DNA of 64,000 bases from Escallonia rubra (taxonomy: Eukaryota > Streptophyta > Magnoliopsida > Escalloniales > Escalloniaceae). Location of the stretch: the NCBI GenBank assembly GCA_033065855.1, contig JAVXUO010001488.1, forward strand, positions 496,001 to 560,000, in the 5' to 3' direction. Below, piece by piece: positions 212 through 42,579 of the stretch (its first letter is position 1; each line of letters starts with the position of its first letter). Both the position numbers and the translations under genes were made by a program. The notes under the pieces were generated by a model that saw nothing but the letters and a program-made list of their open reading frames with translations, was not told the origin of the DNA and ran no database searches.

Positions 212-1813
212 TTAAGTAGAATGGTTACCTCCTCCTTTCCAACCAGCTGTACTGTCTCTTCTTGTCTTGTTTGCTGCAATAGTAGTCCTACCCTCACTCT
301 GTTGGAGTGTAGGTAGATGTTCACCTCCTGTTTGTTCTTCAGAGACATCCCCTATACTTGAATCTAATTGCTGAAACCTATTCTGCAGAACTGTGGTTGT
401 TGGGTTCATCATTTGACCATTGCCACTTATTCCATTGTCATCCATACCTGTTCTCGCATCATTCTTTGAGATTGTAGCTCCTGTTTGTATTTTTTCCTTC
501 CATATTTGTTGGACCCTTGGTTTCACATAACAGGAAGCCTCCCAATGCCCAAACACTTTGCAATGATTGCACCTAGCAGGTTTCCACTCATATACTATTT
601 TTTGTTTGTGGCAGACTCCATTAGGTCCCATAATAGGGACTTCTTCAGGGTATTCACTATTGATATCCATCTCCACACAAACCCTCGCATACATTAGCCT
701 TTCTTTGGATGCAGTCATTTGATCGGTGAAAAGTGGTTTACCCACTATACTGCATATTTTGCTTAGCATGGCTTTTGTCCAAAATTGTAAAGGCAGTTGG
801 GGCAATTTAATCCATACAGGTACAGATTGTACTCCTTCCTTTTCTAGAGCCATTTCTTGAGTCCAAGGCTTTACTATCAAGGGTTTGCTATCAAAAGACC
901 ATGGTCCTTTCTCCAGGATCATTGATTGTGTCTCAGCATTATCAATTTTGATTAGATACATCCCCAATTTCAGCAGGCTAACAGTTATACTCCCATAACA
1001 TCCCCATTTTCTTTCAAGGAACCTTTGCATGACTTGGATTGGGGGTCTAGCCCCCAGGATATAGGCCACAATTGCATGTTTCCATTGACTCAATCCAGAT
1101 TCAACATCTTCCATGGTGTATTGTACACCTTTCGTTCCTTCAATTTCTTGAGGTTCAATGAAGTTTAACTGATTTTCTTGTGTAAATTCTCGATTAGGTT
1201 TTACCACATTTGCATATGATTTTGCAATTGGAAATTGAGTTGATCCTTTACCTGAATCTTCCATGATTTTCCCATGCCCTAATTTTGCTTTTTGAATCTG
1301 TTCATTGCCGTTGTCTTCAAGATTTTTCCCAATTAGGCCTGGAAAATCTAAATCCATTTGCGCGCCAAATTCCGATAGCGCGTGTGTCCTTCCAATTTCC
1401 TTCGCGTTCAATTCACGTGCCCCCTTCGCTGTCAATTGCTCTTCTGTTGTAATGTTGGTCTGGCTAGAGACGCCATTAATGACCTTCTCCTGAGTTAACG
1501 CCTTAACTGCTTCCTTCAATTCCAAATTCTCATGTGATATTTCCATTAACTTTGACCGTAGTTCATTAATCAACTCTCTTAACTCCTTTTCTTCATCGGA
1601 ATCCGAGCTTGTGACTGGAATCTTTCCCGGCTGTATATCCCGAACATCACACACTTCCGATCCTAGTTCCACAGTCAGTTTCTCCTGAGGATCTATGCTA
1701 CTTTTTGTGCCTTTAGTGCTATGCGCATTGGACCACTGCTTCCCAATGTAATCCTTAGCAAATGCATCTTTGGGAGGGCCCCGCATTCTGCTAGATTTTC
1801 TTTGAGTAGCCAT
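212..1813 (-). CDS. LINE ORF1: DUF4283 domain and CCHC zinc knuckle
   Basis: Intact 533-residue ORF. Visible features in order: a basic, polar N-terminus; a predicted coiled coil around residues 75-110 (ELINELRSKLMEISHENLEL); a central DUF4283-like domain with the GLSQWKHAIVAYILG and ILEKGPWSFDSKPLIVKPW blocks; and a zinc knuckle C-x2-C-x4-H-x4-C (CNHCKVFGHWEASC, about residues 415-428). The C-terminal tail is Gly/Thr/Gln-rich. In plant LINEs this protein binds element RNA and forms the RNP. DUF4283-zinc-knuckle proteins also exist as domesticated genes, but the ORF2 start directly downstream marks this one as part of a transposon. The start is the ATG at 1813, the first in the frame. Confidence 0.82.
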   Translation of the reverse strand: MATQRKSSRMRGPPKDAFAKDYIGKQWSNAHSTKGTKSSIDPQEKLTVELGSEVCDVRDIQPGKIPVTSSDSDEEKELRELINELRSKLMEISHENLELKEAVKALTQEKVINGVSSQTNITTEEQLTAKGARELNAKEIGRTHALSEFGAQMDLDFPGLIGKNLEDNGNEQIQKAKLGHGKIMEDSGKGSTQFPIAKSYANVVKPNREFTQENQLNFIEPQEIEGTKGVQYTMEDVESGLSQWKHAIVAYILGARPPIQVMQRFLERKWGCYGSITVSLLKLGMYLIKIDNAETQSMILEKGPWSFDSKPLIVKPWTQEMALEKEGVQSVPVWIKLPQLPLQFWTKAMLSKICSIVGKPLFTDQMTASKERLMYARVCVEMDINSEYPEEVPIMGPNGVCHKQKIVYEWKPARCNHCKVFGHWEASCYVKPRVQQIWKEKIQTGATISKNDARTGMDDNGISGNGQMMNPTTTVLQNRFQQLDSSIGDVSEEQTGGEHLPTLQQSEGRTTIAANKTRRDSTAGWKGGGNHST

Positions 1814-1925
1814 CTCACATTTCTTCCATCAAGATTTGATCATAGAAGATAGATCTTAAGCTATTCAGAAACTGGGAAGTAGATCTGTGCAGGGAGGGAG
1901 GGAGAGAGAGGAGATTCCTGAATTT

Positions 1926-2854
1926 CTGTAAACATTTGTATACACCTCTCTTTCTATTCTCACGTAAAGTCAGTCCTGAATCTGAACGCTTTTCATCTCC
2001 GGCCAGTTTGCATGTGAACAATGAATCAACAGATTGCACTGAACCATTAGAAAATGAGATGATGAAGGAAGAATATTGCATAAACTTACACGGTTGACCA
2101 TGGACTCGCGCCATGGGAGGGGAACGATTTTATTATTTCTCCACAGCCATAGTTTACAATAGAGGTGTATAACATATAGCAACATAGAACATTAAATTAA
2201 ACTGTTGACAAGGTTGCACCTTATCTCAAACTAACCTCGTCTCAATGTTATCCTTGATAGTGAAATTGGGCGCGCCCTTATTTCTCGTCTGGTCTTTAAA
2301 TTTGCATGCACATATTTTTTCCACTTCTTCAATATGTGAATTTGGACACTTCATTTAATATTTCTAGTTCAGTCTGTTAATCTGGACGCTCATCTTGGTG
2401 TCATCTAATACGTGAATCTGGATGCACCTTTTTTTACTTCGTTGGTCCACTTAGTGAATTTTGGGCGTCTAATTTTTATCGTTTTTAGTTCAGTATGTGG
2501 AATTTGGATGTACTATATATCCTGCTTCTAGCCCAGCTTGTAACTCAGGGTGCTATATCATTAACATCAAAATTTACGCCTTTGAAGCCACATCCCGTGA
2601 GACTCAGACATCTAATATTATGGCATTAGCACTGGCATATGCATCAGTAGCAACATCGACATCAATTTTCTTTTCCTTTCTGCCTTACTTTCTTGTCAAA
2701 TTAATTCTCGACGTGGACATCATGACACATTCTAAATTAGGGCATTATTACTGTAAGGGTAATATATTTATTCTACTACTATAACGTGCATCTAGAGTGA
2801 GGGTTTCACTTAAAGCATTAATTGTAATCTCAACATCAAGTGAAATTTATTTGT
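1926..2854. other. Intergenic, no gene seen
   Basis: AT-rich sequence with only short unsupported ORFs. From about 2220 to 2530 it contains loosely repeated phrases of the type 'gtgaatttggacactt / gtgaatctggatgcac', spaced about 60 bp apart, which suggests a decayed tandem repeat. Confidence 0.5.
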
Positions 2855-4118
2855 AGGGTTAAATACACTTTAGTACCCTCAAAGTACCTCAAAATCTTAC
2901 TTGAGAGTCTAAATCTTTTTTTTATGCAAAAGGGTCCGTAGTTTTAAATTTACAATAAGTGAGGACTTCCGTCCAAATTTCTAACGTTCTTCGGCAAAAA
3001 ACCGCAAGGGTAATTTTGTCAAGTCAGTTTTTTTTTTTTTTCAAACCCGCGTTTAATTTAATCTCACGTATTCTTGAAAAGTATAACCACATATTCTGCA
3101 ACATATTAAGATGTGTGAGGGGGAGAAGGCGGGAGGGGGAAGGAAAAACAGAGGCGCGCAGTCGCCCGCGATAGGTGTACGGATCGTGGTTGATGTCGAT
3201 CGGTCACCAGAGAAGGTGCCATTACGGTGGCAAATCGGGTGGCTGGCTTGAATAGCCTTCTTCTTTTTTGTGTTCTATGACGATAAGCTGAGGGACAACG
3301 GCACGACGGAGGTGCAGTGGTGAGGATCTGGTTCTCGGCGGTCGTCGCAGGTCCTTTGTGATAGATCGGTGGCGATGGCGCGGCTGCTCGTCACGGTGGT
3401 GATGGGGCTGTTCACCCATGGTGGCTGGGCTATTCACCCTCTCAATCTACTGATGGGAGTTAGACGACGGAGTGGCGTTGCCGTTGGTCGGTGCTGGTGA
3501 CCGTTGATGGCGGTGGACCGCGAGCAGCGGTTGCGCCGATTGGCGCTAGAGACATCAGGGTTGCTTCTGCCTCCTCGTTTCTTCATTTTTATTTTTTGCT
3601 CGACTTTTTTACGACGATGCCGTCATTTGATGACAGCGACACCGCGACATGGTGGTAGTTCGGCAGTGGTGATGCCGATCTGGTGTAGATTTGATATGTG
3701 GTGATGGCAGTGCTGCGAGATGAAGCGGTAGCGGGTAGCTGAAGTCATAGTGATTTGGGTGAAATTAGTGGGATTACAGGTTGTTGTGATTTGGTGTCTT
3801 TGCAGTACGGGATTAGGGTTACGATCACGATTTGGGGTTTTTGCAGTATGGAATTAAGGTTACAAGATTGGAGTTTGATTTGAGGTAGTTAAAAGGTTTT
3901 TCCCGTTAAGTAGATGATTTTAAACGAGGGTTTAAACAAAGCAAATATAGCTTGACAAAATTGCCCCTGACGGTTTTGGCTAGATCGTTAGGAATTTGAA
4001 CAGAAGTCCTTACTTATTGTGAATTTGAAACTATAGACCTTTTTGCATACGCAAAAAATAAACATTTGGACCCCTCATGTGAGGGTACTTTTCGGAATAT
4101 TAAAGTGTTTTTAACTCT
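2855..4118. mobile_element. Non-autonomous TIR DNA transposon (about 1.26 kb)
   Basis: The first roughly 170 bases (AGGGTTAAATACACTTTAGT...) match the reverse complement of the last roughly 170 (AGAGTTAAAAACACTTTAAT...). Shared inner blocks include ATGCAAAA, CAATAAGT, GGACTTC and CAATTTTGTCAAG. The arms are diverged (I estimate about three quarters identical by eye). The interior (3110-3720) is much richer in G and C than the flanks and has no recognisable protein. Long TIRs and no transposase suggest a Mutator-like non-autonomous element, but I could not find a clear 9-bp target duplication, so the superfamily is uncertain. Confidence 0.65.
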
Positions 4119-15338: not shown

Positions 15339-16811
15339 GAGAAAATATTTAGTAGTTGTCTAATTAACGTCACATCATCGGCATACGTGGTGTTAGACTA
15401 CCACTAATATCACGCCAACTAAGCGAGGGTGGCAAGTTGTGGGCTGATATCCAAGTAGATCTAAATTGTTAACCATGGTTTATAAAGTTAAAATTGAAAT
15501 TTTCGGGAAAAAAAAAAAAGAATTTCCCGCCCACCTTTTTTCATTTTTCAGGTTAAAACATTTGAATCCATTTCCAGTTCTTTCTCCTCTCTTTCCTCTC
15601 CCATTTCACTTCTTTCTGGTCTCTCTTTCATCAGCAATTCAACTGGCAATAAATCAGTTTGGAGATTGGGATGTTTAGATCTTCTTGAACATGTTTAAAT
15701 TTAGGGTTTCCACCGTCCACGGTAAGTACCACTTGGTCTGTGTTACCCTTTTGGTTGTTTAGGTCCTGCATCTCTAAGTTTGTCCATCACCATCCCATTT
15801 CAGAGAGAAAGAGAGTGAATGACTATTGCACCTTACTAATACAGCAGCAGAAGAACCCATCATGCAACTAAGGAACGTGTTGATTAGTCAAAGTTCATGA
15901 CACAAAAAGATGATTGCCAAAGCAGAGGGGGTCACCGTGAAACTGAGCACAGTGCACTTCATTTTCCTTCTTTTCTTTGTAGAAGCAAAAAGTTGAATGG
16001 TTTAAGGTTTTTAATTCAGCTCCTGTAAATGATATTGGCCCCGTTTTCCACACCAGGAAAATCCTAAGTAATTATTCTCCTTACATTTCCCCAGCAATTG
16101 CTGCAAACTTGAATACTAATACTCTTGAATATGAAAGTGACTAGCAAAAATATCAGAGTACTTTCATCTCAAGGAAATATTTTCTTCCTTATGAAATGTT
16201 CCCTAAATACTGGAGCCATAGCATAAAGAATGGACCATAAAAGGATACTAGCTTCTTCCCTGCGTGAACAATTCGCGGGCAAGCCCTCCATAAACAGAGT
16301 ACTGCTAGCGTCAGGAGGCATAGGATCTTCAGGTCTCCAACCACTCACTCCCATTTTCTAGCCATTTACAGTCGCAGCAGGGTCTGAGCCCCCAATGCCC
16401 ATCATAGGAGGATCATCAACATGAGTAGTTGAAGGCACAAGTTGAATTGCTGATGGTGCTTTCTTATTGCCAGAAGATAAACTCCTATACTCGTCCGCCT
16501 TTTCCCAGGTCGGCGCCGCATATAGCCGGGGAGATGAAAGAGGGACAAGAAAGAGATGAAATGGGAGAAGAAAGAGAGAATAAAGAAATAAAATGGATTC
16601 AAATGTTTTACCCTGAAAAATGAAAAAGATGGGCGGGTAATTCAAAATTTTTCGAATCAATTTTAATTTTATAAACCATGGTTAAGAATTTAGATCCAGC
16701 TAGACATCGGCCCACAACTTGCCACCCTCGTTTGTTTGACGTGATATTAGTGGTAGTCTAGCACCACGTATGCTGATGATGTGACGTTAGACAACCACTA
16801 AATATTTTCTC
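15339..16811. mobile_element. TIR element with long arms and a captured gene fragment (Pack-type)
   Basis: The left end (GAGAAAATATTTAGTAGTTG) is the near reverse complement of the right end. The match continues inward for about 300 bases through the CACATCATC, TACGTGGTG, CTACCACTAATATCACG, AACCATGGTTTATAAA and AAAACATTTGAATCCATTT blocks. The total length is about 1.47 kb and no transposase is encoded. The interior carries a fragment of an RNA-binding-protein gene on the minus strand. Long TIRs with a captured host exon fit a Pack-MULE. No clean 9-bp target duplication is visible, so that label is inference. Confidence 0.72.
16169..16660 (-). pseudogene. Captured fragment of an RRM RNA-binding protein gene
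   Basis: One minus-strand frame runs through this stretch, interrupted by a single TAG (16360-16358). Before the stop it reads HVDDPPMMGIGGSDPAATVNG-like sequence. After it come WRPEDPMPPDASSTLFMEGL and PANCSRRE. This linker plus first RRM beta-strand is typical of plant RRM proteins of the nuclear-speckle NSR type, where DASSTLF-EGLP--C-RRE leads into the RNP motifs. Similarity ends right after RRE (about 16264), where the RRM should continue, so only part of the domain was captured. The N-terminal side merges into the element's arm near 16530. Not expected to give a working protein. The family assignment is from memory of the motif. Confidence 0.6.
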
Positions 16812-16955: not shown

Positions 16956-18910
16956 CACTACAAGAAAAAAGACTTTTTGCGACTTAGTTATGTCCGTCGA
17001 TAAAAATCCATCGCTAAAAGTAACAGTTAGCGACAGAATAACCCGTCATCTAAGATCCGTCGGTCAAAACTTTTACCAACGACGGATTTTAGAAGACGGG
17101 TTTTGAGCGACGGATTATCCGTCGCTAATAGGATTTTCTAAATTTTGTATTTTTCGGTCAAATTTTTTAAATATTTTGGGAAAAATATTTAGCGACAGTG
17201 TCTTTAGCAAAGGTCTTCTCCGTCACTAAAAGTTTAAAAAAAACAAAAATACGTTTAGCGACGGACTTTTAGCGACAGCATAGTCCGCCGCTAAAAGTGA
17301 ACCCTAACAAGCGAAATGTTCCCCTTATTTCTCTCTCTCTCTCTCTTTCTCTCTCCTCATCGTCGCCGTTCATCCTCCCGTCCTCTGCCGTCGATGTTCA
17401 CTCCATCACCTCTCTTCATCGTTGGCGCCCCTGTCCTATGTCGTTGCCCTCCCTGTCCCCCGCAGCCTCTGTCATTTGCCGTTTCCCTCCCCCTCCCTCG
17501 GTCGCCCCTCGATCTCCTCTGTCGTCGCTCTCCCCCTCCCCCGCCATGCACCCCTCTCCTCTATCTCCGCCCCTCACCTCGGTGGCCCACCGCCTACCCA
17601 CTACAGGCCAAGCCGTCGCCCACTGCCACTGCAATCCCGACGATCGCACGGCCACTGCCCATCCTCGATCGATATGTGTCTAATTTGATTTGTTATAGTG
17701 TACTTGAATCCTAATTTGGTAATGTTGTATTTCATTTGTTATAATGTAATTGCATTTGATTTGTTATAATGTAATTTATTTAATCTGTTGTAATGTAATT
17801 GTATTTGATTTGTTATAATGTAAATGAATTTAATCTGTTTTAATATAATTGTATTTAATTTGTTGTAATGTAATTGTATTTAATTTGTTAGTTGGGTTTA
17901 ATTAGGAATAATTACTATAAACTAGAGTTTAATTAGGATTAATCAGTTTTAATAAGGCCGCGTAAGTGGCCTCCCCGGTATGACTGCATGCACGTGCCGT
18001 GATAGGAGCACCCCCACCCCCCGCTGCATCTCCACAGACGCAGACACCGACCGTGGAGCGCTCGACGTTACATGAGGATGAGGTTCGTCACATTGCTGCG
18101 GAGGTTTAGGAGGATCACAGAGCATAATCAGGTACAACCATTATATACGTTTAATTAGTGAACACTATACGATTGCTATCGAGATTAATGCGTCTGTGCC
18201 TTTACATGCAGGGCACTGTTGCTGGACATGCCGAGCCGGATCCGGATCACAGTGCCCCCGTGGACGAGGACGATTAGCAGGACCCATCAGATCCGGGACT
18301 CGCTGAACCCTAATCAGCCCTTCCCCTCCTAACTCTTTGTATCCTGCTCTTGTGCCCCTTCCGCCCCCCCTGCCCCTCGACTTGTACTCCCCTCCCCGAC
18401 TCTATTAATATACCCAACTCCCGTGCCCTCCTAAATTTTGTATACATTGAATTGTGATTGTTGGATTGTGAATACATATTTAGGTATTAAAAAATAAAAT
18501 TTAGTTTGACTTTTAGCGACGGACTAGATTCCGTCGCTCAAAGTCTAAGTAATTTTAAACGAATGACTTTTACCGACGGGAATTCCATTGCTAAACATTT
18601 AAACGACAAAAGTTTAGCGACGGAATTTCATCGCTAAATATTTAGGTAATAAATTATTTTTGAAAAAAAAATTTAATACGGAAAATAGAATTAGCGATGG
18701 AATATCCGTCGCAAATTGTATTTGTACTTCCGTCGTTGAAGGTAACTTTAGGCGACGGATTGAAAAATTTTGTCGCAAAACTTTTAAAGACGGGGTTGTA
18801 GGCAACAAAGTTTTAGTGACGGGATGTCCGTCGCTAAAACTTTTTTTCGACGGATATTGGACTTTTAGCGACGGAAGTGTCCGTCGCTAAAAGTCATTTT
18901 TCTTGTAGTG
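16956..18910. mobile_element. Non-autonomous CACTA (En/Spm-type) transposon
   Basis: It begins CACTACAAGAAAAAAGACTTTT and ends AAAAGTCATTTTTCTTGTAGTG, the classic CACTA inverted termini. Subterminal regions (16970-17300 and 18500-18900) are packed with both orientations of TTTTAGCGACGGA / TCCGTCGCTAAAA, the kind of repeat that binds the element's own transposition protein. The flanking triplets are GAA and AAA, so the 3-bp target duplication is imperfect. The 1.1-kb interior has a C/T-rich Pro/Ser low-complexity stretch, an AT minisatellite and a short GC-rich stretch around 18040-18280, but no transposase. It would need an autonomous partner to move. Confidence 0.88.
17690..17895. repeat. 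AT-rich minisatellite inside the CACTA element
   Basis: About six to seven degenerate copies of a roughly 30-bp unit around TTTGTTATAATGTAATTG. It is followed by GGTTTAATTAGG-type phrases like those in the array at 21.3-23.1 kb. Confidence 0.65.
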
Positions 18911-19370
18911 AAACTAAATAGTTTATGATCAATGGAGGTGGAAATGATAATCCAACCAAAAAGGCAGAACACAAACCAATCCATTCACAAAATATAAAGA
19001 ACAATTTAGTGCTAGTAAATGGTAAAAACCCATCTCTAAAAATCCATGGAAACAACGGCGCCTTCGTTGCTACCATGGGCCGCTGCAAATCGTCATCGAC
19101 TCCGCTCTCCAGTCCGTCGGTATTTGGGTTTTAGCGACGGGGTGTCCGCCGCTAAAACCTTTTTTCCGACGAATATCAGACTTTTAGCAACGGAATTGTC
19201 CATCGCTAAAAGTCATTTTTCTTGTAGTGAAACTAAATAGTTTATGACCAATGGAGGTGGAAATGATAATCCAACCAAAAAGGCAGAACACAAGCCAATC
19301 CATTCACAAAATATAAAGAACAATTTAGTGCTAGTAAACGGTAAAACTCATCTCTGAAAATCCATGGAAA
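18840..19370 (+). repeat. 319-bp tandem duplication spanning the CACTA right end
   Basis: The block holding the last subterminal repeats, the terminal TTCTTGTAGTG and about 140 bases of flank (AAACTAAATAGTTTATGA..., through CCATGGAAACAAC) is repeated with the TAGTG ends 319 bases apart (18910 and 19229). The element therefore has two possible right ends. Because flanking host DNA is included, the duplication happened after insertion. Confidence 0.8.
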
Positions 19371-21279: not shown

Positions 21280-23100
21280 CCTAATTGAACCAAATTAGGG
21301 TTGTAACGTAATTGTAACAATTAAACCCTACTTACCCCTAATTTGTTCCCAATTAACCCTAATTGAACCAAATTAAACCTATTTATCCATAATCTAACAA
21401 ATTAACAATAATTAACCCCGCGTAACCCTAATTGAACGAATTAACCCCAATTAAACCCGATTAACCCTAACTGTACCAATTAATTGTAATTAACCCTATT
21501 GAACCAATTAGCCATAAGTAATCCCGATTTAGCTTAATTGAACCAATAAATCTTAATTAGCCCTGATTAATCCTAATTAGTCTGGATAAACCCTAATTAA
21601 CCTAATAAAGCCTAATTAATCTAAGTGCATCCAATTACTCGAATTGCATCCGAAATAGCCTAGTTAAGCCTAAGTACATCCAAATTACTCGCGATCCCCT
21701 TCGACCCCCTACCTCCATCATGCCCCACTGACCCATTGCCCCACCGGCCATCGCTTGTAACCCCGACGACCGGCCACCGCACTGCCAGCCGCCTCCCACT
21801 TGTACGTATTATTTTAATTAAATGTTGGAATTTTTAATTTTTTTGTGAAAGGTCTTTTATTCCATTAAATACAATACTTACATGCCTATGTTTATGTACA
21901 TTCTACATTATACACTAAACCCTAAATTAATCTGTAGTATCCCTGTTTCATCAATCCCACATGCCCTTCATAGTGCTATATTCTTGGCATCTGTTGTGAC
22001 TTGTTGAATTATTCTGATTATAGTTAATTATAATTATTATTTTTTCAAGTTATTCTGATGTCGAAGTGTTCTTTTTGATTTCCAGAATTATTTGTAATGT
22101 GAAGTTTTAGAAATTGATACCTTAGCCCCTTTGATTGGTAGTTAGGAGTCACATGAAAATTAAATTCCTCCACGAGGGGTAACCATATAAAAATAATTTT
22201 GATTAACCCCGATTAACCCCTAACACATCCCTAGGTAACCTTAATTAACCTTAATTAATCATGATTCACCCTAATTAAACATAATTAAACCTAGTTAACC
22301 CCGATCAACCCTAAGTAACCCCGATTAACTGTAATTAACTCTGATTCACCCTAATTAAACCTAATTAACTATTATTAAACCTAAATAACCCTGATTAACC
22401 CTAAATAAACATCATTAACCACGATTAACCCCTAACACATTCCTAGGTAACCCTAACTAAACTCTAATTAAACCCTATTAATATATTCCTAATTAACCCT
22501 AATTATCCTAAATACTCTCTAACCCTAACTATATACTTAAACCCTGGACTCAATCACAAGTGGAACAATTTCAACTCTGCGAATTTACTCAACGAATTCT
22601 AAAGTGACTCAATCCTAATTAACTCTAATTAACCTTAATTAGCTCTTATTTAAACACTAGTTAATAATTATTAAGTCTAATTAAACCCAATTAACCTATT
22701 TAGGTCGAATTAGCCCTTATTAGCATTAACCATATTTAGCTCGAATTAGTCCTAATCGGCTCTAATTAACCCTAATTAAAACTAATTAACCCTCATTAAC
22801 ATTAATTGACCCTAATTTACTATTAATTTAATCTCTAATTATCCCTAATCACCATCAATTAACCTAATTAAATCCTGATTGTCCTGATAAATCGTAGACA
22901 ACCCCTAATTAAACCTAATTAGGGTAATTAACTGTAATATGCTATAATTAGGCTCAATTAGCCTTAAGTAGCCCGAATTAATCCCTCAATAATATTAATT
23001 GAGTCTAATTAAAGGTAATTAACTGTAATCAACCCTAAATAGCTCGAATTGCCCCTAATTAACACATTTACTCGACATTTTCACCTTAATTAGCTATATC
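21280..23100. repeat. Degenerate AATTAACCCTAATT array
   Basis: About 1.8 kb dominated by variants of CCTAATTAACC and CCCTAATTAAA at irregular 10-14-bp spacing. It is interrupted near 21690-21800 by a C-rich stretch and near 21830-22140 by ordinary AT-rich DNA. It resembles telomeric CCCTAAA only superficially: the period is wrong and the AATT spacer is constant. The same phrases appear inverted (GGGTTAATTAG) beyond the palindrome's right arm, so the array belongs to the same inverted structure. Confidence 0.7.
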
Positions 23101-23182
23101 TATTTAGGCTCGGTACAAAATCATTTGGTTATACTGAACATGAGCAGAGAGAGAAAATCATCATTCCTAAATCCTTTAATAC

Positions 23183-23417
23183 TTAACGATCCACCAAATC
23201 AGGATTCTCAAGTAAACCCGGTGCTTTTGGTTGGTAAGTTATGGACTCAAAAATTTTCCTTAGCGCGTCATGTTGAACCATCTCGTCTAAGATCTTATCT
23301 TCCGAAACTTTAGATAACACTTTTGGCTCGCAACTCTCCACGTCTGCAGAAGAGAAGAGTTTCTAAGACAAATTAAAGGTCTTTCTCAACCTGTCGCAGA
23401 CATTTTCTGCCATCCAT
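23183..23417 (-). pseudogene. Gene fragment, left arm of the palindrome
   Basis: Read on the minus strand, this arm encodes a C-terminal segment: a start-like ATG at 23417, MDGRKCLRQVEKD, then a 4-base insertion with a stop. The frame then resumes VESCEPKVLSKVSEDKILDE, MVQHDALRKIFE and QPKAPGLLENPDLVDR, closing with a TAA. Codon-like substitutions between the arms suggest a real source gene. I do not recognise the family. Confidence 0.5.
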
Positions 23418-23772
23418 TATTCCTGAGGTACTTAGATGGTATATATACATAGTTTTCTTCTTACCAATCCTGTATGCGCAACATATGGCTTGCCTTTCAA
23501 CTGATGGGTTCCAACCAATATTAAGCAAAAATAACTATCGATACCCCAACCAGGGTCGATTAGAGCTAATTCGAGCTCATTAGGGTTAATGCTAATGAGG
23601 GCTAATGAGAGCGAAATGAGGTTTGAAAGGCAAGCTATGTGGGACATAAATTTGGTTGGGGTGTCGAGATTTGTGTTGCAATCTATCAGTTGAAAGGCAA
23701 GCCATATGTCAGGCATACGGGATCGGTCTGAAGAAAACTGTGTATATATATCATCTAATTACCTCATGAACA

Positions 23773-24003
23773 ATGGAGGGCAGGAAATGTCTTCGACAGA
23801 CTGAGAAAGATCGTTTGTCTCAGAAAGTCTTCTCTTTTATAGACATGGAGAGTTGCGAACCAAAAGTGTTATTTGATGTCTCAGAAGATAAGATCTTAGA
23901 CGAAATGGTTCAACATGACGCGCTAAGAGAAATTTTTTAGTCCATAACTTACCAACCAAAAGCACCGGGTTTACTTGAGAACCCCGATTTGGTGGATCGT
24001 TAG
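23773..24003 (+). pseudogene. Gene fragment, right arm of the palindrome
   Basis: The mirror copy on the plus strand. From ATG 23773 it reads MEGRKCLRQTEKDRLSQKVF, then SFIDMESCEPKVLFDVSEDK and ILDEMVQHDALREIF, before a TAG at 23938-23940. The same frame continues with QPKAPGLLENPDLVDR to a second TAG (24001-24003). The left arm has GAG where the first TAG stands, so this copy was inactivated by a nonsense change while the left arm carries a frameshift. No upstream exon or promoter was recognised. Confidence 0.5.
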
Positions 24004-24275
24004 ATGTTAAAGGATTTAGGAATGATGATTTTCTCTGCTCAAGTTCACTCTGACCTAATGATTTTGTACCGAACCTAAACAGATAATAGCTAATTAAGGT
24101 AAAAATACAGAGCTAATGCGTTAATTAGGGGCAATTAGGATAGTTCGAGCTCTTTAGGGTTGATTACAGTTAATTACGTTTAATTATACTCAATTAGTGT
24201 TATTAAATGATTAATTCAGGCAAATTCTGGCTACTTAGGGCTAATTGAGACTAATTAGGGTTAATTTTGATTCAT

Positions 24276-25267
24276 TACAGATGACATTAGAGCTGACTTT
24301 TGAAAGCTCGGGTTAGGCTATCCTGTCGGATTGCCAATGTTTAGAGGAAACGAAGGAAAGCCCAGGTATATCCCACATCAAGAGGATGGTTGGGGCAACG
24401 AAGGGTGATCAGGGTATATCTCACATTGGCTAGAGAGGAAGATTTTGAGCTATGTGCTATCGAGGCTTAGCAATGACGCTAAGGCATAAGGTGGGGAGAT
24501 TGTAATATCCCATATTGGATGTGTGGTGATTTGTAATTAGCCTTATAAGACTTTGCATGTGAACTCATAAGTACCTACCTAACTAGCTCTTTTGAGGGAA
24601 AACATTGTCTTGTGGTGGGGCTGTAGATCGGGTCGTTATAGGACTGGGTTTCGGGATTCTTTAAGTGTGTCGAACAATTTTGTGGGAGGTTTAGTTTCAA
24701 AATGGAATGATTTGGGGCTAGAGGGTTTTGTTTGTTGGTGTGAAGTATGAGGGGTTTATGGTCAGAGAAGGAGGCATAGAAATGGGTGATCGTGGCATTA
24801 GGAAAGAGGGCACGTGGTTACTCTGGGTGAAGGGTTAAAATAAAACCCAAGGTCTACCATAAAATTTTTGTTTATGAAACCACAAACTCCTATGTAAGAG
24901 GAGATGGTGACTAGACACCTCCTTTTTGTCTTGATTGAGAAACAACTGCGTTAAAGCCTCTTATGTAGACCCAAGGGCCAAGCAAAGTAATGGTCAATGC
25001 AAAGGCCAAGGCAGCCAAAACGAAGGCCATGACCGCCTTAGCCTTGGTAGCCAATGCCAAGGCCAAGCAAGAGCGGGTGTGGGCTTGAACAGACAAGGCA
25101 GTAAGAGCTTGCCCAGGAGTAGCCCATGCGACTTGAACACAGTCGAGGAGCTTCTCAAGGCTTGGATCAACGACTTCTCTTGTCAGCAAGAGTGATGACT
25201 GCCTTCTGTTGTCAGCAAAAAAGGCATTTTTTTCCTTTTTTCTGCCTAACTCCTAGATCATCACTCT
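24276..25267. other. Intergenic, possible LTR-like traces
   Basis: Contains phrases such as TGTAATATCCCATATTGG (near 24510) and GGTATATCCCACATCAAG (near 24365), the style of start found in many plant LTRs. No paired copy or internal domain was found. No gene is supported. Confidence 0.35.
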
Positions 25268-26608: not shown

Positions 26609-29600
26609 ATGGCGCTACAGAGCTCCAATCGCGAAGCAGCGGAAACCCTAGAGGTGGAAGGGTCTGTTTTGAGGTCTAAAGGTGACCCGGATTCGGAGAA
26701 GACGAAGCAAGAGGGTGTGAGAGGCGAAATCGACACTTCGGCGCCGTTTGAGTCTGTGAAGGAGGCAGTGAGTCGGTTCGGTGGAATCGGGTTTTGGAAA
26801 CCCAGTTCGTACAAGCCCTCCGAAGCTTCTGAGGTACTCTCTCACTCTTTCTGTAATGTGTCTGTGTGTGTCTACAACTCTACATTGTGTTAGTATTCAC
26901 AGTGAGGCTTTATTTATTTTAGGCTTTGTTTGTTGAAATTTCTGTAACATTGTTGGTAAACTAATAAAATTGTTCATTGTGATGGCATATATGATGTTAA
27001 ATTTTCATTGCATTTGTAGCATTTTTTTGATATTGTATGGTGTAATTTACTAATTGAATAGTTTGAGCGACCATTGCCTTGCTTTTTTTTGCTCCTCACT
27101 TTCTCTTGGATTCTGTAATTGACTTGATATTTGGTAGCGTAAAACAAGCAGATAGGGGAAAACTTGCATTTTAAACAATATTGGGCCATATAACTACGAA
27201 AGCAAATGTTGTTCTGCTCTATCAAAGATCTTTTTTACGTGCTCATTTAGAACGATTCTGATCTAGTTTGTCTCCTATATTAGTAGTATCATGTACGTAA
27301 CTGAAATGGCTGCTTTGTTTGATAATGATCGGATGCTGCTGCTTCAGTGTTTGAGAGTTTATGGATAGTAGAATCTGCGTGTCACCACGGGCAAGTTGCT
27401 TATGGGACACAGAGCAGTGATAAGAAGCAGCTTCCACCCATTTACCGTTTTGGTCTGCTTTCTCGATGGAACCATATATAGAGTATGCAGCATGTGCTAT
27501 ATATGCTGGATTGCAATAGTCTGTAAACAGCCAGCTACCAAACTTATAGCTGTTATTTTCTTTTGCTTTTGTGGCTTATGGTAGCGAGTGGGATCCCTAA
27601 TGATAACCTTAGTGAGGGTCGTCTTCTCAAATTCGGTTGCTGGAATCCCTACTTAATTTTTGGTGTGATAAATGGATGCAAACGACATAAAATGTAATAC
27701 TCTTTGGTACTCATGAGAACTCCAATAGCTCTGTGATCAACAGTATGAGAGATTTAGTTCCTGAACCACCCATAGAATTGGTCTGTATTAATTGCTAGAC
27801 CATTAAAAAGGAAAGGCCAAGATAAAGCACAATGATGTCGCTTTACGGCTCTTGCGGTTTCTAGGAAGGTTTCCAATAAGCAGCTATAATCCCATCAATG
27901 GAGAGGCTGATGGATGTGATACGGAACTGCAAAAACAGCAGAGTATTTCCAGCACCTGCATGGAGCATCTTGTATCCATTGTCCTTCATTTTCGTAACTC
28001 TTTTTTGATGGAACAAGTCAAACCTCAAGACAACCTGCCATGTCAGAAGGTGAAGTCCTCCTCATTTCTAATAAGGCACTCCTTGCAGATTGTGACATAA
28101 GTAAGTTTGTATGTAGTTTCATATATGGTGATACATTCGCGGACCCTCCGTGCCTTTCATTTTTCTTGCTCCTCTTTTACTAGTACTTTTAGGTCTCTGC
28201 CCATTGAGGAAGCAGAAAACAAGCCTTAAAACAACACTCTCACTAATATTGATTTGGACAAGGGAACCCTCTTGACATGTCATTGCTAGAACACTCACTG
28301 GATGTAGTGTCAAGCCTAGCACCTTGTAATATCTCTCTGCATGTTGCTTTCTTTATGAATATTTGTTCATCTTCACAAAAGATGTTGATTGCACTGTGCT
28401 TCCATGAATGCAGCATGACATTGAAGTGGTTGACCTTGCCAAAGTGGAGGAACAGGCTACGCAGTTGGAGAAAGATCTTATTCTGAAAGAAAGAGAAACA
28501 CTTGATGTTTTAAAGGAACTGGAAACGACTAAAATGGTTGTAGAGGAGCTAAAAGTAAAGCTACAGAAGGAAGCATCTGAAGTCAATGTAGCCCTTAACT
28601 CGAATGCAGATGACAAGAATGCAAAGAATGTTGTGGATGAAAAGGAAAACATTCCAATGAGCGGTTTGGGGTTGTGTCCTTCCTCAGCTCCTGGTTTTAT
28701 CTTAATGGAGTTGAAACAGGCCAAGTTGAACTTAACGAGGACTACAAATGACCTTGCAGACATTCGAGGCACTGTGGAATCGTTTAGTAAAAAAATAGAG
28801 AAGGAAAGAATTTCTCTTGAGAAGACTCGTCAGAGGCTATCTTCAAATTCCTTGAAAGTTTTATCTCTTGAGGAAGAGCTAAGCCAAACAAAAGAGAAAC
28901 TACAGCAGGCCAAAGGTGTGGAGGTTGAAGGTGGTTCTGATCATTCGCTAAATATTTCGCAACAGCTTCAACGGTTGAGTTCTGAAACTGAGCAGTTTAA
29001 GAAAATGGGAGAAGCAGCAAAAGCTGAAGTTTTGAGAGCAATGTCTGAGATTGAGCAGACGAAAACCAGGATAAGGACCGCTGAGATCAGGTTGATAGCA
29101 GCCAAAAAAATGAAGGAAGCGGCTAGGGCAACTGAAGCTGTTGCTCTTGCAGAAATAAAGGCCCTGTCAAACAGTCAAAGCATATCTGGAGCTTCTCAGC
29201 AGAAGGCTGAAGTGGTAACTCTTTCGTTTGAGGAATACTCCTCTCTGACCTCAAAAGCTCGAGAAGCAGAGGAAGCTTCCAAGCGGAGAGTATTTGATGC
29301 CATGCTTCAAGTTGATGAAGCTAACGTTTCAAAGACAGAGATATTAAAGAGCGTAGGGGAAGCTACAGAAGAAGTCAAGTCTTGTAAAAAGGTCTTGGAA
29401 GAGGCTCTGAACAGAGTAGAGGCTGCGAATAGAGGAAAGTTAGTGGTGGAAGAGGCTCTGCGTAAATGGCGATCTGAGCATGGTCAAAAAAGACGATCTG
29501 TTCATAACTCTACTAAGTTTAAGAATTCTTTCCCGTCTCACCATCGCAAAGATCCTCGTCTGCTTGATGTAAATGGTATTCATTTGGTTAATGATGAGTC

Positions 29601-29910
29601 CACTCCGGTGTTGAAGCCAACTCTGTCGATAGGACAGATCCTGAGCAGGAAGCTGCTTCTAACTGAAGAATATGAGAAGGGGATGCAGGTCAAAAAACGT
29701 ACCATGAGACGCAATGTTTCGTTGGGTCAAATGCTTAGTAAACCAAGTGACGAAGTAGAATCTGGCCGTAAGGGTGAGAGAGAAAGCAGTCACAAGCAAG
29801 TTCCTGCAAAGAGAAAGAAGTTGTTCAGTCGTATCTCGCTCCTCGTGACAAAGCAAAGTAAGAAGAAGAAAAAGAAACAAACCACAAGCTCACGAAGGCC
29901 GAGTTGGTAG
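26609..29910 (+). CDS. WEB family (DUF827) coiled-coil protein, two exons
   Basis: Exons 26609-26833 and 28414-29910, phase-0 junction, 573 residues. The N-terminal signature RGEIDTSAPFESVKEAVSRF (residues 38-57) followed by GGIGFWKP is the WEB family hallmark. Exon 2 is almost wholly coiled coil (about residues 80-360), with the family block AEVVTLSFEEYSSLTSKARE. The C-terminus carries LSIGQILSRKLLL and VSLGQMLSKP blocks and a Lys-rich end. WEB1/PMI2-type relatives act in the cytosol on light-driven chloroplast movement through actin; shorter members like this are less studied. The ATG at 26609 is the only Met codon of the exon-1 frame ahead of the signature. The intron is 1,580 bases. Confidence 0.9.
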
Positions 29911-41151: not shown

Positions 41152-42579
41152 ATGGAAAACGATGGGGGTGTGTTGATGCAGCGTTACGAGGTAGGGAAAC
41201 TGCTAGGACAAGGAACCTTCGCCAAGGTCCACCATGCAAGGAGCCTTAGAACTGGTATACATGTGGCCATTAAGATCATTGACAAAGAGAAGATTTTGAA
41301 GGTTGGGATGATAGATCAAATTAAGCGAGAGATTTCTGTAATGGGACTGGTTAGGCACCCTAACATAGTGCAGCTACATGAGGTTATGGCTAGCAAAAGT
41401 AAGATTTACTTTGTCCTAGAATATGTCAAAGGTGGGGAGCTCTTCAACAAGGTGTCAAAAGGGAAGCTGAAGGAGGATATCGCGAGGAAATACTTTCGAC
41501 AGCTGATCAGCGCGGTTGATTATTGCCATAGTAGAGGTGTGTACCACAGGGATTTGAAACCGGAGAACATACTGTTGGACGATAACGGGAATCTAAAGGT
41601 TTCAGACTTTGGATTGAGTGCGCTAGCTGAATCTACGCGTCAAGATGGGTTGCTTCATACGACCTGTGGGACGCCTGCATACCTTGCTCCGGAAGTGATC
41701 AGTAGAAGAGGTTATGATGGATCCAAAGCTGACATCTGGTCCTGTGGTGTGATCTTATATGTCCTTTTGGCTGGCTATCTCCCGTTCCACGATTCGAATC
41801 TTATGGAGATGTATAGGAAGATTAGCAAGGCAGAGTTCAAGTTTCCCAACTGGTTCCCGCCAGACATTCGCAGGCTGATATCAAGGATATTGGATCCAAA
41901 CCCAAAAACCAGGATATCCATTGCCAAAATCATGGATAACTCTTGGTTCCGGAAGGGTTTTAGCCTAAACGCAGTAAGAACTGATATCAAAGAGAAAGAT
42001 TTGGCCACCATTGACACTGATGCAGTTTTTGGCCCTCATGAGAATAGCAGTACATCAGCGGAACCAAAACAAGAATCGGCCAATCCTAGCAACTTAAATG
42101 CTTTTGAAATCATCTCCCTATCGGCAGGATTTGACCTGTCTGGTCTGTTCGAGGCAAATGACCAAAAGAAAGAAGTTAGGTTTACATCAATTCAGCCTGC
42201 CAAGACCATCATCACCAAGTTGGAGGACATAGCTAAGCGTCTGAAGTTGAAAGTGGTGAAGAAGGACAGAGGGTTGTTGAAGCTGGAAGGATCCAAGGAA
42301 GGCCGAAAAGGTGTCTTGTCCATTGACACACAAATCTTCGAGGTTACTCCAACTTTTCATCTGGTTGAGGTGAAGAGGTCTGGAGGAGATACTCTGGAGT
42401 ATCAGAAGACAATGAAGCAAGACATAAGGCCAGCTCTGAAAGACATTGTTTGGACTTGGCAAGGTGATCGTCCGCAACCGCAGCCGGTGCAACCCGAGCA
42501 ACCAGAATTGCAGCCTTCTCAAGTAGTCCAGATGCAGGTTGCCTCTCCTCAGAATCCTCAAGAAAGGAATTGCTTGTAA
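41152..42579 (+). CDS. CIPK: CBL-interacting protein kinase (CIPK/SnRK3), intronless
   Basis: 475 residues in one exon. Kinase domain about residues 12-267: Gly loop GQGTFAKV (19-26), Lys41 in VAIK, catalytic HRDLKPEN (132-139), DFG (152-154) and APE (179-181), with a full activation loop. The regulatory half carries the NAF motif, [18 protein letters not shown] starting at residue 316, which binds calcineurin-B-like calcium sensors and releases autoinhibition. The adjacent PPI-type segment ([20 protein letters not shown]) docks PP2C phosphatases. CIPKs relay calcium signals to ion transporters and stress responses at membranes. Lack of introns places it in the intron-poor clade, and the sequence looks closest to the CIPK2/10/20 group, from memory. 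The C-terminal tail is unusual: about 35 residues rich in Pro and Gln. Confidence 0.95.

Follow-up and report, generated by a model that had tools for sequence, protein, structure and literature searches.

A palindrome in Escallonia rubra as probable CACTA transposon cargo, built from the inverted end of a host SNF2-type gene

MicroRNA (miRNA) genes can arise by inverted duplication within transposons and pseudogenes (PMC3237417), and in rice miR820 lies inside CACTA elements and represses OsDRM2 (PMC3459959). Longer hairpins have been described in other plants. The soybean aquaporin (NIP6-1) repeat on Gm14 is a long inverted gene piece (621 bp) that matches a host gene (PMC3534067), IR71 of Arabidopsis gives a long endogenous fold-back RNA that acts as a Dicer-like substrate (PMC12825306), and Mu killer (Muk) of maize is a transposon-related long hairpin proposed to feed small interfering RNAs (siRNAs) (PMC2725412). 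Pack-CACTA elements combine CACTA ends and 3-bp target duplications with a captured gene piece and internal tandem arrays (PMC8978399, PMC13317346). A 64,000-nt stretch of the Escallonia rubra genome (GCA_033065855.1, contig JAVXUO010001488.1, 496,001-560,000 of the forward strand), here called the window, holds a palindrome that resembles each of these in some respect, the fold-back RNA being in this case predicted. Very probably the palindrome is the cargo of a CACTA (En/Spm) family, in which the captured end of an SNF2-type gene was doubled head to head and spread with the element. The history proposed begins with an ancestral CACTA element that took up the C-terminal part of a host SNF2-type remodeller gene, a gene that probably belongs to the CLASSY/DRD1 group; duplication of the piece head to head would have given a near-perfect hairpin, which the element would have carried along to about a hundred loci or more, and the copy in the window would be a truncated, decaying remnant without transposon ends.

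Local self-alignment of the window places the arms of the inverted repeat at 22945-23552 and 23653-24257, with a score of 737, where 20 mononucleotide shuffles reach 29 at most; this bears out the existence of the repeat first noticed in an earlier, sequence-only reading of this DNA. That reading had called the palindrome near-perfect and paired almost completely to its centre. Of 585 ungapped columns the arms agree in 513 (87.7%), another 43 letters stand against gaps, and their Kimura two-parameter (K2P) distance is 0.136; the first description is therefore wrong, and the second fails at the 100-nt centre (23553-23652), which falls outside the arm alignment. Plant sequences diverge at 6.5e-9 to 1.3e-8 substitutions per site per year, rates at which the K2P distance would correspond to about 5-10 million years. 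The C-terminal peptides that had been named are present in both arms, in opposite orientation, as are the disabling lesions, a nonsense codon in arm 2 and a 4-nt insertion in arm 1. A transcript of the arms would, as had been expected, form a long duplex: the predicted RNA fold of 22920-24285 comes to -821 kcal/mol (with no shuffle control at such length), and the arms contain 46 perfectly paired 21-mers, with perfect runs of up to 43. The coding signal in the two window arms alone is weak (P 0.03-0.04 in a chosen frame) and the whole block is non-significant in any frame; Rfam at its gathering threshold gave no match. Three further inverted pairs of at least 60 nt occur within the same window. 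The copy is laid out as follows:

21281..24266, plus strand: probable inner part of a CACTA transposon, truncated and lacking terminal inverted repeats at both ends, recognised by homology in other loci
21281..21690, plus strand: degenerate ~10-bp tandem array of CCCTAATTAA type, outer left, found by its lag-10 signal
21691..22195, plus strand: 'piece A', a unique stretch between arrays, partly common to several other copies by homology
22200..22900, plus strand: degenerate ~10-bp tandem array, inner left
22945..23552, minus strand: palindrome arm 1, gene-sense on the minus strand, from self-alignment
23099..23174, minus strand: piece of the parent 3' flank in arm 1, from comparison with the parent gene
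23172..23552, minus strand: SNF2-type fragment of arm 1 (end of the helicase C-lobe, C-terminus, stop), frame broken by the 4-nt insertion
23553..23652, no strand: centre or loop, including a short array in TTAGGG orientation at 23556-23620
23645..24014, plus strand: SNF2-type fragment of arm 2, with in-frame stops, one of them after ...ALREIF
23653..24257, plus strand: palindrome arm 2 as a whole, from self-alignment
24012..24090, plus strand: arm 2 copy of the parent 3'-flank piece, from comparison with the parent gene
24090..24265, minus strand: inverted array of TTAATTAGGG type that runs up to the right-hand truncation

The arms are thus bordered by degenerate ~10-bp arrays, of CCCTAATTAA type on the left and of TTAATTAGGG type on the right and in the centre. 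These arrays match themselves at lag 10 at a rate of 0.49, where 0.30 is expected, and are dense in the window only at about 21.3-24.3 kb. The left limit of the copy is the start of the array and the homology stops on the right at ~24258-24266; other copies run on for ~1 kb rightward to a CACTA terminus, and the window copy does not. A search for a target-site duplication around it returned array words only.

The palindrome is one of many in the source assembly (566 Mb, 3222 contigs). With arm 1 as the query, 349 candidates were seen at first look and 40 were scored; beside the window itself (100%), the scored matches comprise 39 full or nearly full ones at 88-91% and 4 more at 84-85%. A peptide search gave 387 candidates, and the best 150 rows fall into 118 loci on 106 contigs, window included, an undercount in that it draws on those 150 of the 387 candidates. 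Two rows fall together at 32 of the loci, in every case in (-,+) order and at a distance of 435-563 bp. In 29 other loci taken with 1.5-kb flanks, homology runs through the arrays and the palindrome in many, and also through part of piece A in several, among the matches listed. Where the sequence-only reading had seen a young single locus, the window therefore holds a decayed and truncated member of a CACTA family whose 150 best peptide rows fall at 118 loci; the inverted duplication is most likely older than the family's spread. The same reading held that a repeat family of hundreds of copies with no host-gene parent would speak against it; the copy number is indeed high (387 candidates, with 118 loci among the scored rows), and the absence of a parent is contradicted. 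As it had supposed, the arms are a real piece of a host gene duplicated in inverted orientation, and the parent is present in the assembly. Relatives of the 58-residue peptide were also sought in viral and prokaryotic contigs, where 12 and 114 pattern matches, respectively, yielded none that was confirmed.

Eighteen copies, picked for long alignments or good arm matches, were examined at about 10 kb each, and both arms are present in 18 of 18 of this selected sample. The 4-nt insertion is a family polymorphism and not specific to the window, since it occurs in 11 of 19 arm-1 rows and 2 of 19 arm-2 rows. The latter belong to copies L031 and L044, whose arm 2 carries an insertion otherwise seen only in arm 1, which hints at occasional conversion from arm to arm.

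Most copies share sequence for ~1 kb to the right of the palindrome, up to ...TTTTTCTTGTAGTG, a CACTA terminus. This right end is found with at most 2 mismatches in 14 of the 18 copies (it is absent from L032, L040, L041 and L046), and in 9 of the 18 a CACTACAAGAAAAA-type 5' end, again with at most 2 mismatches, lies within the retrieved stretch too. Seven of these nine two-ended copies (L036, L037, L038, L043, L044, L047 and L048), 5.1-9.3 kb long, have identical 3-bp flanks; L031 and L042 have both ends and unequal 3-bp flanks. The longest open reading frame (ORF) of the seven complete copies has 112-174 codons in six and 661 in L047, and the family looks non-autonomous on that evidence. The 661-residue open frame lies at oriented positions ~1690-3680 inside the 9.3-kb complete element and presumably represents a nested hAT-type gene. 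A Foldback (FB/Galileo/Tm1-like) element was considered for the long arms and 10-bp arrays and dropped because the copies have CACTA ends, with arrays and palindrome internal to them. The window has a CACTA element without the hairpin as well, at 16956-18910, with the same CACTACAAGAAAAA-type ends, internal AT-rich tandem repeats (17683-17890) and 3-bp flanks that match inexactly (GAA/AAA). An additional CACTA right end lies at 19229. Piece A was compared with the interior of the window's CACTA element as a possible relative and rejected (score 25, below a shuffled maximum of 32).

Across 19 copies 38 arms were read, and in 6 of these arms a longer frame is open over nearly the whole of a 116-residue probe, with no stop or gap. 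The stop-free natural arm of L041 matches SNF2-family helicases in the PDB (phmmer), among them RAD54 (E 2.2e-10), ATRX (1.5e-9) and INO80 (1.7e-9), and also ISW1, CSB and DDM1; the joined majority reading agrees. The helicase part matched is what we take to be motifs V-VI. PDB phmmer recognised the piece only when the query took in the inner half of the arm: the 58-residue tail has no significant match in Pfam or PDB, and Pfam detected the SNF2 piece in none of the forms tried (matches lay below cut-off only), NCBIfam likewise. The antisense ORFs of 84 and 91 residues, for which a likeness to DUF4283 had been presumed, gave values below cut-off (TRAPPC10 in Pfam, E 0.21; PRDM9 in PDB, E 0.88) and no supported match by tblastn (best E 0.93). 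The flanking ORFs, presumed to resemble long interspersed nuclear elements, gave nothing above the Pfam cut-off.

The parent was sought by an SNF2 family search of the assembly followed by comparison of five short stretches downstream of candidate genes. One of these, L053 on C1563, ends in the same way as the arms: its protein is 75.6% identical to that of L041 arm 1 (E 1.9e-61) and scores 189 bits, against at most 71 for the other four. The C1563 gene has an open frame of 641 residues around its SNF2 match, and a near-identical twin lies on C2428 (547 of 552 columns). Majority sequences of the two arms match C1563 DNA at 90.3% (327/362) and 87.9% (297/338), the window arms at 85.9% (311/362 aligned bases, arm 1) and 83.7% (283/338, arm 2). 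The differences between majority arms and parent fall mostly at third codon positions (5/8/22 and 8/8/25 by parent codon position), a pattern that fits a constrained gene. After the gene piece, the arms carry a 76-80-bp segment that lies 668 bp further downstream in C1563, the join showing a GGA microhomology; a spliced capture was considered and rejected, as no GT-AG is present at the 668-bp join. Judged by these alignments, the arms are the C-terminal end of the host SNF2-type remodeller gene on C1563. Scraps of the parent gene from upstream of the captured piece, at 72-79% protein identity, were seen at C1244:36002-36109, C2702:51202-51303 and C287:92456-92566, and appear to be other captured or pseudogene pieces. 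Additional parent-gene sequence occurs 0.2-1.5 kb from hairpin arms at C1208:72472-72558, C1245:175422-175508 and C3030:194066-194152, where the copies possibly retain more of the captured gene.

CLASSY proteins bring Pol IV to transposons for the production of 24-nt siRNAs, and the identity of the parent within the SNF2 family bears on what the hairpin could do. A probe taken just upstream of the captured piece and slightly overlapping it gave 13 matches, headed by C1563 and C2428 at 195.6 bits; next came C3003, C1924 and C2685 at 53-70 bits, and then short scraps and weaker genes. The genes on C2685, C1924 and C3003 are thereby the nearest long-frame relatives of the parent among 23 scored candidates, in a six-frame, exon-by-exon search that can miss genes split by introns. 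The parent scores 126-143 bits with these three, against at most 86 bits with any named SNF2 structure. We tentatively take the parent to be CLASSY3/4, C2685 to be DRD1 and C1924/C3003 to be CLASSY1/2. CLSY1, DRD1 and RMR1 have been placed in a subfamily defined by Rad54 (PMC2725412), and a monophyletic group of three clades has been described in which one clade contains CLSY1/2 and another DRD1 (PMC12389316). The closest long-frame relatives of the parent found in the assembly are in line with this three-clade group and suggest that the parent belongs to the CLASSY/DRD1 group, which acts in RNA-directed DNA methylation. The four CLSY proteins of Arabidopsis, however, were found not to group together when the helicase C domain is used by itself (PMC12389316), and our comparison draws on that region, a caveat that slightly lowers confidence in the captured-cargo account.

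The majority sequences of arm 1 and arm 2 are identical at 397 of 411 positions (96.6%), with 14 differences and 32 more columns gapped in one of them, and the hairpin was therefore nearly perfect when it was spreading. Arm 1 of all 19 copies groups together with a support of 0.61, or 0.92 if one arm-2 row is allowed (midpoint rooting); from this grouping, the arms were most likely inverted before the family spread. Individual copies now lie 5-6% from the majority, with differences of 0.053/0.041/0.049 and 0.065/0.054/0.062 by codon position, second positions being slightly lower. Arm identity is 88.58% within copies and 88.63% between copies (permutation P 0.66), a comparison in which selective upkeep of pairing is not seen and in which the arms have drifted independently since the spread.

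Several points count against the account given so far. The 668-bp skip at GGA without GT-AG obscures the form in which the gene was captured. The copies examined were selected by likeness to arm 1, and apparent duplicate haplotypes (C2814/C2815, C1563/C2428) may inflate the locus counts. The term non-autonomous is based on ORF lengths, and the support for the arm-1 clade is modest. The subfamily label is tentative and derives from the helicase C region.

What the hairpin does, or did, is a separate matter from how it arose. Were such copies transcribed, Dicer-like enzymes would process the long hairpin into siRNAs, and it is by analogy a plausible substrate for them, as are IR71 and the soybean aquaporin repeat. 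The siRNAs would match the CACTA family and also the parent gene wherever the two are still identical. The likelier account, to which we give somewhat better than even credence, is that a piece of an SNF2 gene was picked up by chance, inverted during or after capture, and has hitch-hiked without function. Capture of gene fragments by CACTA elements is described as common (PMC8978399, PMC13317346), the arms drifted independently and with a near-neutral codon pattern after the spread, and the three other inverted pairs in the window point the same way. Chance leaves unexplained the choice of gene group and the retention of both arms in every long copy examined, the latter in a selected sample. 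Across 15 copies the arms (91.7% and 89.6% identity) are also somewhat more alike than the right internal part (86.4%) or the subterminal part (84.5%); the loop (90.4%) and the outer arrays (88.4% and 89.4%) come close to the arms, and since the copies were chosen by arm match, the higher identity of the arms is not taken as selection.

It is unlikely, though it deserves serious consideration, that the hairpin acts or acted against the defence of the host, as a long-hairpin silencing suppressor made from an inverted CLASSY-type C-terminus, spread to about a hundred or more loci, with the window copy a relic. In lowering the expression of a CLASSY/DRD1-type parent, its siRNAs would weaken RNA-directed DNA methylation of the element. 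Consistent with this are the nearest long-frame relatives of the parent, which fit a group containing remodellers of that pathway, the 96.6% identity of the majority arms in a high-copy family, and the precedent of miR820 and OsDRM2 (PMC3459959). Moreover, a perfect 21-mer in common with a 2-kb stretch of the parent occurs at least once in 30 of the 36 arms outside the window (on average 8.6 perfect, and 50 with at most one mismatch), against zero in five shuffles of majority arm 1. The window arms, however, have just 1 and 3 perfect parent 21-mers, pairing is not maintained at present (P 0.66, above), arm divergence is similar at all codon positions, and the label of the parent is tentative. 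That label depends on the helicase C region, reportedly a poor one for telling CLASSY proteins apart, which slightly lowers the credence of this account too.

A third account, quite improbable in our estimate, is camouflage through epigenetic conflict, in which sequence shared with a needed gene would make silencing of the element costly while the gene goes unharmed. It follows a model proposed for captured genes (PMC8978399, PMC13317346), and the cargo does come from a host gene with an open frame; an inverted repeat would be unnecessary for it, however, and a strong hairpin would rather attract silencing. Just as improbable is a self-silencing trigger, with hairpin siRNAs directed against the CACTA family itself as with Mu killer and MuDR (PMC2725412), for although the arms include family sequence beyond the gene piece (the arrays) and silencing by the Muk hairpin has been described, the hairpin here spread with its family instead of arising once as a rearranged copy.

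Other features of the window lie outside the palindrome. An element with terminal inverted repeats at 15339-15632 and 16533-16811 (84% identical arms, GAGAAAATA ends, flanks roughly repeated) is presumably MULE-like. A possible polypurine tract followed by TGTAATATCCCATATTGG occurs at 24490-24510, ~230 bp to the right of the truncation of the hairpin copy, and we take it to resemble the start of a long terminal repeat. Domains were seen in the ORFs at 212-1813 (DUF4283), 28408-29910 (WEMBL) and 41152-42579 (kinase and NAF), the last presumably of CIPK type.

If the hairpin did act against the methylation pathway, a transposon would have turned RNA interference of its own making on the class of plant genes in charge of silencing transposons. 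Independent of miR820 and the second CACTA case of its kind, it would strike the silencing pathway at its entry point, and would mean that the strategy of miR820 has had more than one origin and works with long hairpins too. The family would offer an arms race open to direct testing, in which a candidate for the target gene has been identified. If it is a dead passenger, the palindrome is explained all the same, and the case suggests that such repeats be traced to a transposon family before they are called regulatory loci.

No CACTA element with an inverted CLASSY/SNF2 piece was found in the searches made of the open-access literature, although one may be in print elsewhere. Compared with a young plant MIRNA or hairpin-siRNA locus, the inverted duplication of a host-gene piece is present here, and near-identical arms and a recent local origin are not. 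The soybean NIP6-1 repeat occupies one 5-kb region and has siRNAs mapped to it (PMC3534067), whereas the palindrome described here belongs to a transposon family and is known from its DNA sequence. IR71 is transcribed, as about 3 kb of double-stranded RNA (PMC12825306); the E. rubra arms are part of a host gene carried within a transposon. Muk is a repressor of MuDR (PMC2725412), whereas here a piece of a host gene makes up the arms. Pack-CACTA elements differ in that the accounts drawn on here describe no inverted duplication of the captured piece (PMC8978399, PMC13317346). The closest likeness is with miR820, where a CACTA element likewise carries and spreads a foldback derived from a host gene (PMC3459959), and where the target belongs to the DNA-methylation machinery, the parent here looking like another gene of that pathway. 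For miR820, 22/24-nt small RNAs from a stem-loop, target cleavage and co-evolution have been demonstrated, with five copies in Nipponbare (PMC3459959), whereas the E. rubra family, known from its DNA, has a ~1.3-kb hairpin, about a hundred or more loci, and an SNF2 remodeller as the gene concerned.

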